Of a stretch of 64,000 nt of DNA, positions 8,079 to 62,243 are shown in pieces. The stretch spans positions 62,001 through 126,000 of the forward strand of contig JAMOPO010000015.1 in the NCBI GenBank assembly GCA_027064425.1. The letters run 5' to 3'. Numbering within the stretch: the stretch's first letter is position 1; the number at the start of each line of letters is the position of its first letter. The notes beneath the pieces are model-generated. The model did no database searches and had not been told where the DNA came from. It worked only from the letters and a program-made list of their open reading frames with translations. The position numbers and the translations under genes were made by a program. Origin of the DNA: Methanobacteriota archaeon (lineage in GTDB: Archaea; JAADCQ01; Methanopyri; Methanopyrales; Methanopyraceae).

Positions 8079-9114
8079 TACGCAGCCCCCGCAGGGCCCG
8101 AAGCACCCCCCTGTCCGCCGGGATCTCGTCCAGCCGGTACCCCTGAGCCCCCTGAAGCGCCGCCGCCACCTCCGCCGGGTTGAGCACCACCCACCGCTTG
8201 AACCGGGCCGCCTCGTCGACGGGGACCCTCGGACACCCACAGTAGATGCACTGATCGCACCGGAGCGACCGCAGGACGTCCTCGGTAAGGTATCGAACCT
8301 CCCACCGGGCCCCGCCCAGCGCCTTGAGAACGTCCTCCCGGCGCTGACCGATGCAGGTGCTTCCCACCACCTCGACGTCCTCCTCAGGGTCGAACTCCCG
8401 GATCTTGGAGAGCCGGACGGCGAGGACGCGTCTCACGGACTCCTCCAGCGACTCGGGGTCGATGACGCCCCGAGTCGGATCGATCTGCACCACGGGCTGA
8501 CCCGTTCTCAGCCTCGCTCCCAGCGGGTGGAACCGGCCGCTGCACACGATCACCACGGGCCGGTTCTCCAGGCAGGAGAAGTTGCAGCCCAGGACCAGCC
8601 CGGGCTCCGGGACACGCCCCGGGTCCCCGCGACCGACGTGGGCGCGGATCCCTTCCCGCTCGAGCAGCCTCGCCACCCGGTCCAGCTCGTGCACGTGCTG
8701 TGCCGTGGCGCAGAGGTCGACCTCCTCCACCCCGGCAGACCTCAGGATCTCCGCCGCCTCCTCGACCATCCACTCCTCGACCGCCTTCCTCCCACGGGTG
8801 GGTAAGAAGATAGGCCGAACGCCGAGCCTGCGGAGCTCCTCCTCCACCTCTGGGATCGGGTAGTGACCTAGGTGGAGGAGGTAATCCGCCCCGGCGGCCA
8901 TGCCCGGCGTGACGTCGCAGGCTCCGAACACCCGACCCGCGTCCAGGACGACCTCGCACCCTTTTCCCTCGAGGATGTCGGCGACCTCCCGGGCGATCCC
9001 CTTCAGACCGTCGGGGGCCTGCACCAGGACGCGGCCTGACACCTCGAGATCCTCAACCACCCTCGGCACGTCCTCCTCGTCATACGGGCCGTCAGCGGAG
9101 GTGCATCTCCTCAT
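8038..9114 (-). CDS. dph2: Diphthamide biosynthesis enzyme Dph2
   Basis: Archaeal Dph2 is a non-canonical radical-SAM enzyme that transfers the 3-amino-3-carboxypropyl group of SAM to a histidine of elongation factor 2. The sequence has VLVQAPDGLKGIAREVADIL, GACDVTPGMAAG (first cluster cysteine), VLGCNFSC in the middle and CDQCIYCGCPRVPVDEA near the end. The third motif carries more cysteines than the single one needed. ATG 9114 has GGTGATC just upstream; GTG 9129 would add five residues. It uses the product of metK at 1.6 kb. Confidence 0.9.
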   Translation of the reverse strand: MRRCTSADGPYDEEDVPRVVEDLEVSGRVLVQAPDGLKGIAREVADILEGKGCEVVLDAGRVFGACDVTPGMAAGADYLLHLGHYPIPEVEEELRRLGVRPIFLPTRGRKAVEEWMVEEAAEILRSAGVEEVDLCATAQHVHELDRVARLLEREGIRAHVGRGDPGRVPEPGLVLGCNFSCLENRPVVIVCSGRFHPLGARLRTGQPVVQIDPTRGVIDPESLEESVRRVLAVRLSKIREFDPEEDVEVVGSTCIGQRREDVLKALGGARWEVRYLTEDVLRSLRCDQCIYCGCPRVPVDEAARFKRWVVLNPAEVAAALQGAQGYRLDEIPADRGVLRALRGLRNGSAADDVPGGGS

Positions 9115-14662: not shown

Positions 14663-14899
14663 TTGGTCGAGATCAAGGTCCACGAGGACCGATGCCACGG
14701 GTGCGGTAACTGCGTCGTCGCCTGCCCCGTCAACGCCAGGAACTCGCCGAACGCGTGGGGAGGGAAGGGGCCGGAGGAGGACGACGTCGTCATCAAGGTG
14801 GTGAACGGGGTGGTGAAGGTCGTAAACGAGGACCTGTGCGAGGCCTGCCTCACCTGCGAGCTCGCCTGTCCCGTCGACGCCATCGAGGTCCGGCCCTGA
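14663..14899 (+). CDS. fwuG: Formylmethanofuran dehydrogenase ferredoxin subunit FwuG
   Basis: A 78-residue ferredoxin with two [4Fe-4S] motifs: CHGCGNCVVACP near residue 11 and CEACLTCELACP near residue 58. It passes electrons to the tungsten/molybdenum subunit during reduction of CO2 to formylmethanofuran. It is the first gene of the dehydrogenase block, TTG start after GGGAGCGGCGG. The gene order G-D-B and the selenocysteine codons in B identify this as the selenium-type (Fwu) enzyme. Confidence 0.92.
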   Translation: MVEIKVHEDRCHGCGNCVVACPVNARNSPNAWGGKGPEEDDVVIKVVNGVVKVVNEDLCEACLTCELACPVDAIEVRP

Positions 14900-14913: not shown

Positions 14914-15312
14914 TTGGCCGAGTTCACTCTCATCACCGGCCGAACCATCTGGCAGGGGGAGGCTATCGAGACGGGCAAGGACGAGGAGATTTACCCCGAG
15001 GCCGTCGCGGTCTGCTACTTCAACCCGGCCGACATGGAGGAGCTCGGCATCCGGGATGGCGACCCCGTCAGGGTCAGGTCCGAGCACGGAGAGGTCGTCG
15101 TGAGGGCTCGCGCGGCCGAGACCGACGTCCCGCCCCGCGGGGTCGTGTTCATCCCGATGGGCCCGTGGGCGAACCGGGTGGTGGACCCGGACACCGCCAG
15201 CACCGGAATGCCGGGGTTCAAGGGCGTCAAGGTCGAGGTGGAACCCACGGATGAGGAGCCTGTCGAGGACATGTCCGAGCTGATGCGCAAGGAGTACCTG
15301 AAGGAAGAGTAG
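14914..15312 (+). CDS. fwuD: Formylmethanofuran dehydrogenase subunit D
   Basis: The 132-residue molybdopterin-dinucleotide-binding subunit. Its family normally forms the C-terminal part of molybdopterin oxidoreductases but is a separate polypeptide here. Recognisable parts are FTLITGRTIWQGEAIETGK, YFNPADMEELGIRDGDPVRV and VFIPMGPWANRVV followed by DTASTGMPGFK. TTG 14914 was chosen because it lies at the conserved N-terminus, just after GGGGGTGCCCGGG. It works with FwuB in the cytoplasm. Confidence 0.93.
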   Translation: MAEFTLITGRTIWQGEAIETGKDEEIYPEAVAVCYFNPADMEELGIRDGDPVRVRSEHGEVVVRARAAETDVPPRGVVFIPMGPWANRVVDPDTASTGMPGFKGVKVEVEPTDEEPVEDMSELMRKEYLKEE

Positions 15313-15374
15313 CCCTCACGCTCACCCTCTGGCGCTCGAGCTCGCCCTCTACAGCGGGAAGGGGGTGAGAACGA

Positions 15375-16679
15375 GTGGGGGACAGGGAGGTAGTCAAGGA
15401 CGTGGTGTGCCCGTTCTGAGGGACGCTGTGCGACGACCTAGAGGTGGTCGTGGAGGACGGTAAGATCGTCGAGGTGCGGCACGCGTGCAGGATCGGTGCG
15501 GCGAAGTTCCTCAGCGCGCAGGAGGAGGACCGGCCGACGGAGCCGATGATCCGGGAGAACGGTGAGTGGAAGAAGGTCGACTACGAGGACGCCGCCGAGG
15601 AGACCGCTCGGATCCTCGTCGAGGCCAAGCTGCCGATCCTGTACGGCTGGTCCGCCACGCTGGTTGAGGCGCACGAGAAGGGTATCGAGCTAGCGGAGCT
15701 CGTCGGTGGCGTCATCGACAACACCGCCTCGGTGTGACACGGCCCGTCGGTGCTGGCGCTCCAGGACGTGGGCGTGCCCAGCTGCACGCTGGGCGAGGTG
15801 AAGAACAGGGCGGACACGATCATCTACTGGGGCAGCAACCCGATGCACGCTCACCCGCGGCACATGAGCCGGTACACCACGTTCGCGCGCGGGTACTTCC
15901 GGCCGAAGGGTCGCCAGGACCGCACGATCATCGTCGTGGACCCGCGGAAGACCGCGACCGCCCGGCTAGCGGACGTGTACATCCAGGTGCGGCCGCACGA
16001 GGACTACGAGCTGATCAGCGCGCTCCGCGCGGCGGTGCACGGGGTCGAGATCGAGCGGGAGGAGGTCGCCGGCGTCCCGGTAGAGAAGATCTACGAGGTC
16101 GCGGACCTGCTCAAGGAGGCGAGCTTCGGCACGCTGTTCTGGGCCATGGGCCTGACGATGTCCCGCGGTAGGCACCGGAACATCGACAACGCGATCTGCC
16201 TGGTCCGGGACCTAAACGAGCACACCAAGTGGGTCCTAATCATGATGCGCGGGCACTACAACGTGACAGGGTTCAACGAGGTGCTCGCGTGGACCACGGG
16301 CTACCCGTACGCCGTGGACTTCACCCGCGGGTACCCGCGGTACAACCCGGGCGAGACCAGCACCGTGGACCTGCTGACCCGCGGCGAGGCGGACGCGATG
16401 ATGGTGGTCGCCAGCGACCCGGGCGCGCACTTCCCGCAGAAGGCGGTGGAGCGGATGGCCGAGATCCCGCTGGTGTGCGTGGACCCGCACTGGACGCCGA
16501 CGGCCGAGCTCGCGGACGTGTACGTGCCCACGGCGATCGCCGGCATCGAGTGGGAGGGCACCGCCTACCGCATGGATGCGGTACCCATCCGCATGCGCAA
16601 GGTCGTCGACCCGCCCGAGGGCCTGCTCAACGACGTCGAGTTCCTCGAGATGGTCATCGAGAAGGTCGAGGAGATGTAA
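15375..16679 (+). CDS. fwuB: Formylmethanofuran dehydrogenase subunit B with two selenocysteines
   Basis: Catalytic Mo/W subunit reducing CO2 to formate for methanofuran. The frame from GTG 15375 (SD GGGGGTGA) to TAA 16679 is open except for two TGA codons. TGA 15417-15419 is residue 15, in CPF-U-GTLCDD, replacing the second Cys of the [4Fe-4S] motif. TGA 15735-15737 is residue 121, in ASV-U-HGPS, replacing the Cys that binds the metal in cysteine-type FwdB. The protein matches the family across both codons, so selenocysteine is far likelier than termination. A SECIS hairpin follows in the 3' UTR. Length is 434 residues. Automated gene callers would split this gene at the TGA codons. Confidence 0.93.
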
Positions 16680-16711: not shown

Positions 16712-16753
16712 GCCCCGCGGGGCGAACCCCGCACCCGGGGAGCCCCGCGGGGT
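16712..16753 (+). ncRNA. Archaeal SECIS element in the fwuB 3' UTR
   Basis: The hairpin begins 33 bases after the fwuB stop. A 12-pair GC stem (16712-16723 with 16742-16753) is interrupted by an internal loop of GAA (16724-16726) facing a single A (16741). A 5-pair CCCCG/CGGGG stem (16727-16731 with 16736-16740) and a CACC loop cap it. The GAA/A asymmetric bulge below a short GC stem is the hallmark of archaeal SECIS elements, which act from the 3' UTR. It can direct both TGA codons of fwuB. Confidence 0.85.
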
Positions 16754-16818: not shown

Positions 16819-17145
16819 TTGGGGCGCGATCCCGAGCCCCGCTGCCCGTACTGCGGGTCCCCGTCCTGCGTCAACGAGTCCGCCCTGTCGCTGTTCCTCC
16901 GCGCCTCCGAGCGCATCGCGAGATACGTCGTGAAGGAGCGAGACAAGGTGGACGATGACGACCCCCTGTTCCGCCCCTCCTTCGGCGAGGTTGGCGTCTG
17001 CCGAGAGACCTCGCGCCGGATTTGGGCGTGCCCGTACTGCCGCTCCCTGATCCCCGAGCCGGAACCCGACGGGATGACCGCCCGGTGCCCCGAGTGCGGT
17101 CGCGAGGCCAACGTTGCCCCCTCACGCCGCAAGATCGTGTGCTGA
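16819..17145 (+). CDS. Small zinc-ribbon protein of unknown function
   Basis: A 108-residue protein with three Cys pairs: CPYCGSPSC at the N-terminus, CPYC near residue 73 and CPEC near residue 92. The last two pairs probably form one treble-clef or rubredoxin-like zinc site. The middle is helical and charged. TTG 16819 was chosen because AGGGGGT lies 6 bases upstream. It sits between fwuB/SECIS and fwdA, so it may help assemble or regulate the dehydrogenase; this is inferred from position only. Confidence 0.6.
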   Translation: MGRDPEPRCPYCGSPSCVNESALSLFLRASERIARYVVKERDKVDDDDPLFRPSFGEVGVCRETSRRIWACPYCRSLIPEPEPDGMTARCPECGREANVAPSRRKIVC

Positions 17146-17160
17146 CGCGGGGGGATGCCC

Positions 17161-18903
17161 TTGGCCAAAGAGCTCCTGATCAAGAACGCGTGCGTGTACG
17201 ACCCGCTCAACGGTATTGAGGGCGAGGTGATGGACCTGGGCGTGAAGGATGGCAAGATCGTGGACCCGTCCGAGGTGGACGAGTCGAAGGCGAAGGTCAT
17301 CGACGCGGAAGGACGCCTGACCATGGCCGGTGGGGTCGACATTCACGCGCACGTGGCCGGGCCCAAGGTGAACGTCGGCCGCATCTTCCGCCCGGAGGAC
17401 AGCCGCCGGCTGCAGGTGGCGCTCAAGAAGCTCGGTCCCCGGTCCGGCTCCGGCTTCTCCGTCCCGTCCACGACGCTGACGGGCTACATGTACGCGCAGA
17501 TGGGCTACACGACCGTGATGGAGGCCGCGACCCCGCCCCTAATGACGCGGCACACGCACGAGGAGATCCGGGACACGCCCATCCTGGACCAGAGCGCCTA
17601 CACTCTGATGGGTAACAACTGGATCCTGTACGAGTACATCCGGGAGGGAGAGCTGGAGAAGGCGGCCGCGTTCGCGGCCTGGCTGCTGCGGGCGACGAAG
17701 GGCTTCGTGATCAAGATGGTCAACCCCGGCGGCACGGAGGCGTGGGGCTGGGGTAAGAACGTCCACAGCCTGGACGACGAGGTCCCGTACTTCGGCCTGA
17801 CGCCGGCGGAGATCTACCAGAACTACGTCAAGATCAACGAGCTGCTGGGCCTACCGCACTCCATCCACATCCACCCGAACCTGCTGGGCGAGCCCGGCAA
17901 CTACGAGATCACCCTGGGCACGTGGGACGCGGTCCGTGACGCGGGCGTCGATCCCGACCCGCAGCTGGGCGAGCGGGAGCAGATCGTGCACAGCACTCAC
18001 GTGCAGTTCCACGCGTACGGTGGTGACTCCTGGGCGACCTTCGAGTCCCGGGCGGAGGACATCGCGAAGTACCTGAACAAGCACGAGGAGGTCACGATCG
18101 ACCTGGGCGCCGTGACCCTCGACGAGACCACGACCATGACCGCGGACGGCCCGCTGGAGTGGGAGCTGCACGAGCTGACCGGCTTCAAGTGGGCGAACTG
18201 CGACGTCGAGGTCGAGACCGGCTCCGGCGTCGTCCCGTTCATTTACAGCCCGAAGAACCCCGTGCACTCCGTCCAGTGGGCCATCGGCCTCGAGATCGCC
18301 CTGCTGACCGAGAACCCGTGGCAGGTGGTCATCTCGACGGACCACCCCAACGCCGGCCCGTTCCACCGGTACCCGCGGGTCATCGCCTGGCTGATGAGCG
18401 AGCCGTACCGGGAGGAGTGGCTGGAGAGAGTGCACGACTGGGTCGGCCAGCGCGCGGTTCTGGGCACCATCGACCGAGAGTACACCTGGACGGAGGTGGC
18501 CATCACCACCCGGGCCGCGCCCGCCAAGATGCTGGGACTGTCCGATCGGATCGGGCACCTGGGCGAGGGCGCCTACGCGCACATCGCGATCTACGACATC
18601 AAGCCGGACGAGGTGGACCCGTCCCGGGACTACGCTGAGGTCGAGCGAGCCCTGGAGCAGGCTTGGCTGGTCGTGAAGGACGGCGAGATCGTCGTGCAGG
18701 ACGGCGTGGTGGTCAACGAGGTTACCGGTCGGACCTACTGGGTGGACGTGAAGGTGCCCGAGGACATCCTGGAGGAGGTGAAGAAGGACCTGGAGACCAA
18801 GTTCCGGCGCTACTACTCCGTGAACCTGGGCAACTACCAGGTGCAGGACGTGTACCTCCCGCGAGAGGAGCGGATCGTGATCGACGCCCGAGACCGCTTC
18901 TAG
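17161..18903 (+). CDS. fwdA: Formylmethanofuran dehydrogenase subunit A (amidohydrolase)
   Basis: Amidohydrolase-type subunit that condenses formate with methanofuran at a dinuclear metal site. It has the metal ligands in AGGVDIHAHVAG (HxH), the carboxylated Lys region GFVIKMVNPGG, HIHPN, and the late Asp in STDHPNAGPFHRYPR. The 581-residue length is normal for the family. TTG 17161 lies six bases after GGGGGG (17149-17154); the upstream ATG 17155 would touch the SD directly. It is the large partner of FwuB, and only 15 bases separate it from fwdC. Confidence 0.95.
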   Translation: MAKELLIKNACVYDPLNGIEGEVMDLGVKDGKIVDPSEVDESKAKVIDAEGRLTMAGGVDIHAHVAGPKVNVGRIFRPEDSRRLQVALKKLGPRSGSGFSVPSTTLTGYMYAQMGYTTVMEAATPPLMTRHTHEEIRDTPILDQSAYTLMGNNWILYEYIREGELEKAAAFAAWLLRATKGFVIKMVNPGGTEAWGWGKNVHSLDDEVPYFGLTPAEIYQNYVKINELLGLPHSIHIHPNLLGEPGNYEITLGTWDAVRDAGVDPDPQLGEREQIVHSTHVQFHAYGGDSWATFESRAEDIAKYLNKHEEVTIDLGAVTLDETTTMTADGPLEWELHELTGFKWANCDVEVETGSGVVPFIYSPKNPVHSVQWAIGLEIALLTENPWQVVISTDHPNAGPFHRYPRVIAWLMSEPYREEWLERVHDWVGQRAVLGTIDREYTWTEVAITTRAAPAKMLGLSDRIGHLGEGAYAHIAIYDIKPDEVDPSRDYAEVERALEQAWLVVKDGEIVVQDGVVVNEVTGRTYWVDVKVPEDILEEVKKDLETKFRRYYSVNLGNYQVQDVYLPREERIVIDARDRF

Positions 18904-18918
18904 CGGGGGAGCGACCCC

Positions 18919-19722
18919 GTGAGGGAGGTCATCCTGACGCCGAAGGAGCGGCCCGACGTACCGCTGGAGGCGGAGGTGATCACGCCGGACGAGTTCGCCG
19001 GCAGGGACCCCGAGGAGATCCTCGAACTCACCGTGTACGAGGGCAACCGAGAGCGCGAGCTGGGCGACTTCTTCGACCTAGAGGGCCGGCCCGGCGACTC
19101 GGCCGACGAGACCCGCATCGTCATCGACGGTGACGTCGACCACGTGAAGCTCATCGGCCACGAGATGAGCGGCGGAGAGATCATCGTCGAGGGCGACGTC
19201 GGCCGCCACGCCGGCGCCCAGATGGAGGGCGGCAGGCTCGTGGTCAAAGGTGACGCCGACGACTGGGTCGGGCGCGAGATGAAGGGCGGCGAGATCATCG
19301 TCAAGGGTGATGCGGGCAACTACGTCGGCGCGACCTACCGGGGCGAGTGGCGCGGTATGAGCGGTGGCCGGATCGTCGTCAAGGGCGACGCCGGCGACGA
19401 GATCGGCGAGTGGATGTCAGACGGCGAGATCGTCATCGAGGGCGACGCCGGCATCATGATCGGCATTCACATGCAGGGTGGTCAGATCATCGTCCGGGGC
19501 AGTTGCGGCGTCCGTCCGGGCGCGGAGATGGAGGCGGGTACTATCGTCGTGCAGGGTCGCGTCGAGGACATCCTCCCGACCTTCAAGTACCAGGGCACGG
19601 AGCGTGACCCGGTCGATGGAGTGTCCGGGGAGTTCCACCTGTTCAAGGGTGACTACTCCAACGGTCCCGACGTGAAGGGCAAGCTCTACGTGGACGCCGC
19701 GCTCAACGACGTCCCCGAGTAG
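18919..19722 (+). CDS. fwdC: Formylmethanofuran dehydrogenase subunit C
   Basis: A 267-residue beta-helix subunit homologous to the C-terminal domain of glutamate synthase. About seven copies of a repeat of the form GGEIIVEGDVGRHAG, GGRLVVKGDADDWVG and GGRIVVKGDAGDEIG are visible, each contributing one coil. FwdC fastens subunits A and B and brackets the formate tunnel. It ends the dehydrogenase block. No second fwdB gene (cysteine type) is in the window. Confidence 0.95.
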   Translation: MREVILTPKERPDVPLEAEVITPDEFAGRDPEEILELTVYEGNRERELGDFFDLEGRPGDSADETRIVIDGDVDHVKLIGHEMSGGEIIVEGDVGRHAGAQMEGGRLVVKGDADDWVGREMKGGEIIVKGDAGNYVGATYRGEWRGMSGGRIVVKGDAGDEIGEWMSDGEIVIEGDAGIMIGIHMQGGQIIVRGSCGVRPGAEMEAGTIVVQGRVEDILPTFKYQGTERDPVDGVSGEFHLFKGDYSNGPDVKGKLYVDAALNDVPE

Positions 19723-61688: not shown

Positions 61689-62243
61689 GTGCCCGTCGAG
61701 GTGGTCGTCGTCCGGCCCGGCTACCTGGAGCGGACCGCGAGCGGCGGCGTCCGGCGGGCCGACTCCGCCGTCGTGCTCCTGATCACGGACGAGATGAACC
61801 TGCTCGTCGACGTGGGCTGCGAGAAGCCGAGACAGCTGGTCCGGCGGCTGGAGCCGTACGGCGTCGACGCGGTGGTGTTCACCCACGGCCATCACGACCA
61901 CGTGGGCAACGCCGAGGAGATCCGGGAGGCCTTCGACCCGGACTTCTACGCCCACCCGGAGGAGGCGGGCTCCGTCCCGGTGGACGTGGACGACGTCGAC
62001 GAGCTCGATCCGCCCGAGGGCGTTGAGGTCGTGGAGACGCCGGGCCACACGCCGGGGCACGTATCGGTGGCCGTCGGCGACCACCTGATCGTGGCCGGCG
62101 ACGCGTGTCCGACGCCCGACAACGCGGTGGAGCGAACGCCGCCCGCCATCGCCTGGGACCGGGAGAGGGCGGAGAAGTCCCTGGAGGTGGTCCTGTCCTA
62201 CCCTACAGTCATCCCGGGGCACGGCGTCCACGTGCGCCCCTAG
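61689..62243 (+). CDS. Metallo-beta-lactamase-fold hydrolase
   Basis: A 184-residue MBL-fold protein with metal motif VVFTHGHHDHVGNA (HxHxDH), VETPGHTPGHVSVAVGD and the final VIPGHGVHV. GxAGD-like VAGDACP carries the bridging Asp. The short length suggests a single domain with no added substrate region. GTG 61689, seven bases after dut. Specificity unknown. It overlaps the next, convergent gene by 4 bases. Confidence 0.88.
   Translation: MPVEVVVVRPGYLERTASGGVRRADSAVVLLITDEMNLLVDVGCEKPRQLVRRLEPYGVDAVVFTHGHHDHVGNAEEIREAFDPDFYAHPEEAGSVPVDVDDVDELDPPEGVEVVETPGHTPGHVSVAVGDHLIVAGDACPTPDNAVERTPPAIAWDRERAEKSLEVVLSYPTVIPGHGVHVRP

Follow-up and report, generated by a model that had tools for sequence, protein, structure and literature searches.

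A second predicted selenocysteine codon, at a putative iron–sulfur ligand position, in the fwuB gene of a Methanopyrus genome

Introduction

FwdB, subunit B of formylmethanofuran dehydrogenase, is required for the reduction of CO2 to methane. FwuB, a selenocysteine (Sec)-containing form of this subunit, was reportedly described in Methanopyrus kandleri by Vorholt et al. in 1997. The Cys residues at positions 12, 15, 19 and 38 of the family presumably bind a [4Fe-4S] cluster that neighbours the metal site, an assignment that we take over from the homologous formate dehydrogenases. In synthetic [4Fe-4S] clusters, selenolate can replace thiolate.

A 2026 review credits FwdB and HdrA with a single Sec each and VhuD with two, and predicts Fe–S contacts for several selenoprotein families on the basis of their Cys homologues (PMC13188914). 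Peiter and Rother found that a 3′ SECIS in M. maripaludis recodes a reporter UGA at three positions, with no strict rule of distance or context (PMC9622424). The reported distances between UGA and SECIS range from 70 to 1500 nt, and in genes with two Sec codons a single SECIS is thought to serve both (PMC9499178). Here we analyse a Methanopyrus fwuB gene in which a second TGA codon occupies one of the four conserved Cys positions of the cluster motif.

Methods

The genome under study (G000) is a Methanopyrus draft of 1.54 Mb in 57 contigs, 99.2% complete and represented by a single assembly. The stretch of DNA analysed, referred to below as the window, is 64 kb long and corresponds to positions 62001–126000 of contig C15 (430 kb). 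Four other Methanopyrus genomes (G001–G004) were compared, one of which, G002, we take to be M. kandleri AV19, and 36 Methanococcales genomes made up the wider comparison set for FwdB and HdrA. In a control scan, codons of the draft genome were aligned against AV19, yielding ~90,000 well-aligned codons, including 1,146 for Cys; start sites and antisense frames were judged by eye. SECIS elements were sought with a motif search built from published SECIS features. An Rfam search of the window returned two tRNAs and no other matches.

Results

The fwuB gene and its operon

With TGA read through, the fwuB frame extends from a GTG start to a TAA stop, encodes 434 residues and contains exactly two TGA codons, at positions 15 and 121 (table 1). 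The initial annotation, which had placed two in-frame TGA codons at conserved Cys positions of a single gene, was thus correct on this point. The product scores 683.6 bits against the NCBIfam family TIGR03129 (cut-off 327.8) and is 63% identical to the solved FwdB of M. wolfei, to which its AlphaFold model (mean pLDDT 74) aligns with a TM score of 0.82. Gene order around fwuB is that of AV19; the zinc-ribbon-like ORF in this operon lies, as far as known, outside the Sec mechanism. Family score, Sec at the tungsten site, SECIS and operon all agree in classing the gene as FwuB, and we treat the exchange of Cys for Sec as variation within the family.

Pairwise comparison of fwuB gave a dS of 0.44 and a dN of 0.07 against G003, and a dS of 0.72 and a dN of 0.06 against G002. 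The dN/dS ratio is ~0.1–0.16 across the whole gene, beyond codon 15 as well as before it, and purifying selection is acting on the frame on both sides of this codon.

Table 1. Features of the fwuB locus, with the Sec-type hdrA gene of the same genome. Positions are those of the window except where a contig is named.
Feature	Position	Strand	Evidence or remark
Ferredoxin gene, small, two [4Fe-4S], FwdG/H-like	14663..14899	+	upstream in operon
fwdD-like gene, molybdopterin dinucleotide binding domain	14914..15312	+	PF01568
Ribosome-binding leader of fwuB, AAGGGGGTGAGAACGAGTG	15359..15377	+	nearly identical to the hdrA leader of this genome
fwuB, formylmethanofuran dehydrogenase subunit B	15375..16679	+	two TGA; TIGR03129 above cut-off; orthologues
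TGA codon 15, predicted Sec	15417..15419	+	second Cys of CPF(C/U)GTLC
TGA codon 121, known tungsten-binding Sec	15735..15737	+	UHGP
Archaeal SECIS in the fwuB 3′ UTR	16712..16753	+	12-bp lower stem, GAA/A internal loop, 5-bp upper stem
Zinc-ribbon-like ORF between fwuB and fwdA	16820..17145	+	86% identity to AV19; conserved
fwdA, amidohydrolase subunit	17155..18903	+	TIGR03121 above cut-off
fwdC	18919..19722	+	TIGR03122 above cut-off
Sec-type hdrA with extra TGA at residue 16	C27, about 218168-219142	-	CHCG -> CHUG

The two TGA codons in the context of the FwdB family

Residue 121 aligns with a non-standard residue of the solved chain 9sfi_Q and with the Cys that serves as ligand in FwdB of M. 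wolfei, which supports its prior assignment as the metal-binding Sec of Fwu enzymes. The corresponding TGA is present in the other Methanopyrus genomes and in most Sec-type FwdB genes of the Methanococcales.

Residue 15 is the second Cys position of the motif CxxCxxxC-x18-C, of which FwuB of the draft genome retains the other three as Cys. In an alignment of 16 sequences (with U written as C) the residue-15 column is invariant, as are those of Cys12, Cys19 and Cys38. The initial annotation, which had identified residue 15 as the second Cys of CPFCGTLC within a [4Fe-4S] motif, therefore holds, and by homology this residue would ligate the [4Fe-4S] cluster in the FwdB family. All FwdB N-termini checked, from Methanopyrus, Methanococcales (26 more of which were added) and other archaea, have Cys at position 15; the four other Methanopyrus genomes all use TGT for it, and no Sec-type FwdB with more than one TGA was found in the 36 Methanococcales genomes. 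TGA15 is accordingly specific to this lineage. A comparison of fwuB among Methanopyrus genomes had been proposed at the outset; its result, Cys in four of four other genomes, speaks against conservation of the Sec site, while a read error is made unlikely by evidence from hdrA and from the control scan given below. As a side observation, one Methanococcales FwdB copy (G077:C1:630105-631397) carries an in-frame TAA and is either a pseudogene or an error.

A SECIS and genes for Sec decoding

The predicted folding energy of the fwuB SECIS is −38.5 kcal/mol, compared with a mean of −23 for shuffled sequences (z = −5.2). It is kept in G001–G004, with one compensated A-U/G-C pair, and a search of both strands of the 64-kb window brought up no second one; the motif search detected none for the Cys-type fwcB gene of AV19. 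The genome also encodes tRNA-Sec (69.5 bits), SepSecS (562.6 bits) and SelD, the last with a Sec codon of its own.

The SECIS lies 1292 nt from UGA15 and 974 nt from UGA121. Both distances are within the reported 70–1500 nt and the 3′ SECIS of M. maripaludis acts flexibly; a change from Cys to TGA in this gene should therefore be read, at least partly, as Sec rather than as a stop. Like multi-Sec archaeal selenoproteins of the VhuD type, the gene has two in-frame UGA codons and one SECIS in the window, which would serve both; the further hallmark of a multi-Sec gene, conservation of both UGAs in relatives, is absent, since codon 15 is Cys in them. Two UGAs in one mRNA should also reduce the yield of protein, which counts against the Sec15 reading.

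A second case in hdrA, and the probability of error

The fwuB gene is GC-rich, and 15 of its codons are one step from TGA, eight for Trp and seven for Cys. We considered the fall of the TGA on a Cys codon as strong evidence in itself and rejected this argument: the chance is 7/15, or ~0.2–0.3 if transitions are favoured. On fwuB alone, the reality of TGA15 would be open. The stronger evidence comes from the SECIS, from a parallel case in hdrA and from clean controls.

In Sec-type hdrA of the draft genome, residue 16, a conserved Cys near the N-terminus, is also encoded by TGA, in addition to the known Sec codon near residue 200. The hdrA genes of AV19, G001, G003 and G004 have a single TGA each, and none of the Sec-HdrA genes found in the 36 Methanococcales genomes has a second. 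Cys16 may have a role in Fe–S binding, to judge from its place in the N-terminal iron–sulfur domain (PMC12054007). The 3′ SECIS of hdrA is intact, at a distance of 1992 nt from UGA16, beyond the reported 70–1500 nt. Because of this distance UGA16 is less secure than UGA15 as a site of decoding, yet it is useful as evidence against error. The remaining Sec genes sampled showed no extra early TGA. The leader GGGAAGGGGGTGAGAACGAGTG is common to fwuB and hdrA here; similar leaders occur in other Methanopyrus genomes and are rare in the other DNA sampled.

The control scan yielded no other credible change from Cys to TGA among ~90,000 codons. Further apparent stops were discarded, as they lay upstream of real starts, at the edges of contigs or genes, or in antisense frames. 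Under a random model, the chance of two hits in the ~57 Cys codons (a rough count) of the sampled selenoprotein genes with none elsewhere is ~0.002; if fwuB is taken as given and hdrA alone is counted, it is ~0.05. These figures bear on the possibility that codon 15 is truly TGC or TGT and that the consensus is wrong at one base, as a single-base difference from all relatives in a draft of 57 contigs might lead one to suspect. Such an explanation needs another selenoprotein gene, hdrA, to have been misread independently, again at a Cys codon. No other credible gene with a change from Cys to TGA appears among the well-aligned codons, and of some 70 genes compared on the 430-kb contig that holds the window none is broken. 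With the parallel hdrA case and the clean control codons, we regard a read error, or for that matter a simple pseudogene, as unlikely.

Apparent loss of the selenium-free isozymes

FwuB is the only full-length FwdB found in the assembly. Relatives carry a second FwdB gene, which in the draft genome is represented only by fragments on contigs C49 and C57. On C49 (G000:C49:1-1010), the start of a Cys-type hdrA (~180 codons) runs into codons ~268–430 of fwcB, with 4 bp shared at the junction. Relative to AV19, this is a deletion of ~5.65 kb that cuts both Cys isozymes, fwcB and Cys-hdrA. The second fragment (C57, about 8173-8369, minus strand) is a weak remnant of the 3′ end of fwdB, away from any fwd operon.

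Given that FwdB is needed and that FwuB is the only full-length copy found, it is difficult to see how the cell could live if fwuB could not be translated. TGA15 could still be a true nonsense codon in a decaying or polymorphic gene if the cell relied on a Cys isozyme missing from the assembly, and such a copy is conceivable as relatives have a second FwdB where this genome shows fragments. Against this reading, the constraint on fwuB continues after codon 15, its SECIS and operon are intact, and the C49 fragment is a deletion junction, so that the isozyme itself looks lost. We consider a nonsense allele very unlikely.

Three observations on fwdB copies in the other Methanopyrus genomes are recorded here. 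In G003, a short remnant of the fwdB 3′ end (G003:C31:28108-28239) also lies apart from any fwd operon. G001 has two fwdB copies whose coding sequences do not differ between nt 9 and nt 1292. Both have TGA121, and no SECIS lies near the one at the fwc locus; gene conversion could have left this Sec codon lacking its SECIS, or the assembly may have confused two nearly identical copies. In the AV19-like genome, fwuB and fwcB share several long identical tracts, including most of the first ~220 nt and of the last ~270 nt of the coding sequence, which suggests repeated gene conversion.

Discussion

Taken together, we think it fairly probable that fwuB works as a selenoprotein gene and acquired its second Sec codon through the exchange of a single base, that this codon is decoded with the help of the SECIS and that Sec15 sits on the iron–sulfur cluster. 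The change would have been TGC or TGT to TGA (C-to-A or T-to-A) at codon 15, and the SECIS acquired for Sec121 would make the whole frame permissive for reading UGA as Sec. In the predicted product, Sec121 would bind tungsten and Sec15 would be one of four ligands (three Cys and one Sec) of the adjacent [4Fe-4S] cluster. As selenolate substitutes in synthetic clusters, a cluster with three Cys and one Sec would probably form in FwuB. The same kind of event may have converted Cys16 of hdrA to UGA, and extra Sec sites might be tolerated, or even favoured, in a lineage without FwcB and Cys-HdrA.

Sec15 could be neutral, it could tune electron transfer, or its codon could act as an early checkpoint for selenium. 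A change of cluster potential, as the initial annotation suggested, or of efficiency may accompany it. In the case of a checkpoint, a shortage of selenium would stop translation of fwuB and hdrA after ~15 residues instead of 120–200, so that no long useless fragment is made, and Sec would reach the cluster as a by-product. The extra UGAs fall at codons 15 and 16, each a second Cys codon, a placement with a post hoc probability of ~2/8 × 2/32 = 0.016; the two genes have nearly identical leaders, and the Cys isozymes have been cut by the deletion. The pattern was recognized after the fact and rests on two cases, however, and the other Sec genes sampled lack an early extra codon. We find a checkpoint improbable as the explanation of TGA15. 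More broadly, one may speculate, and we do so with considerable doubt, that a lineage without selenium-free isozymes has extended the use of selenium into Fe–S ligation, with three-Cys, one-Sec clusters in both the CO2-reducing FwuB and the electron-bifurcating HdrA and possibly a checkpoint at the early UGAs.

If codon 15 is read as Sec, this would be a native [4Fe-4S] cluster with a selenolate ligand at the entry step of methanogenesis, and a native protein would be at hand in which to study what selenium does to cluster potential and to the reduction of CO2. The case also outlines a route by which new Sec sites could originate, as a gene that already has an archaeal SECIS needs a single base change to go from Cys to Sec. 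That this genome has apparently also lost its Cys isozymes turns commitment to selenium into a testable story.

How unusual such a ligand would be can be judged from the literature. For a selenolate at an Fe–S cluster, which the initial annotation took to be very unusual, we found no experimental precedent in a native enzyme of the FwdB family in the open-access literature. The site is less isolated than that view implied, given the two Sec of VhuD and the Fe–S contacts predicted for other selenoprotein families (PMC13188914). In the open-access literature we likewise found neither FwdB nor HdrA described with a second Sec, and since the 2026 review gives one Sec for each, the second sites in both look undescribed.

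Among the described systems, VhuD/FrhD of methanogens resembles fwuB of the draft genome in having two UGAs in one gene, in a number that varies between species. VhuD, whose two Sec stand in CxxU and GUKKxEC contexts, has two TGA codons in G000, G001 and G002 and one in G004, with GCKK in place of GUKK; Sec sites therefore come and go within Methanopyrus. VhuD/FrhD differs from FwuB in that it is a [2Fe-2S] protein of another family, and its two-Sec state, which reviews already list, is common to different species. Known HdrA (CxxU) is, like FwuB, a SECIS-bearing selenoprotein of the same pathway; it has Sec near position 200 only and Cys in CHCG, whereas HdrA of the draft genome has the extra N-terminal Sec codon. 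Formate dehydrogenase H and related Mo/W enzymes share with FwuB a metal-bound Sec close to a [4Fe-4S] cluster in CxxCxxxC, with Cys as all four cluster ligands, unlike the ligation predicted for FwuB of the draft genome. The closest match is FwuB of M. kandleri and the Methanococcales, which agrees in family, operon, Sec121 as the tungsten ligand and 3′ SECIS; these known proteins have one Sec and Cys15, where the gene described here has its second TGA.
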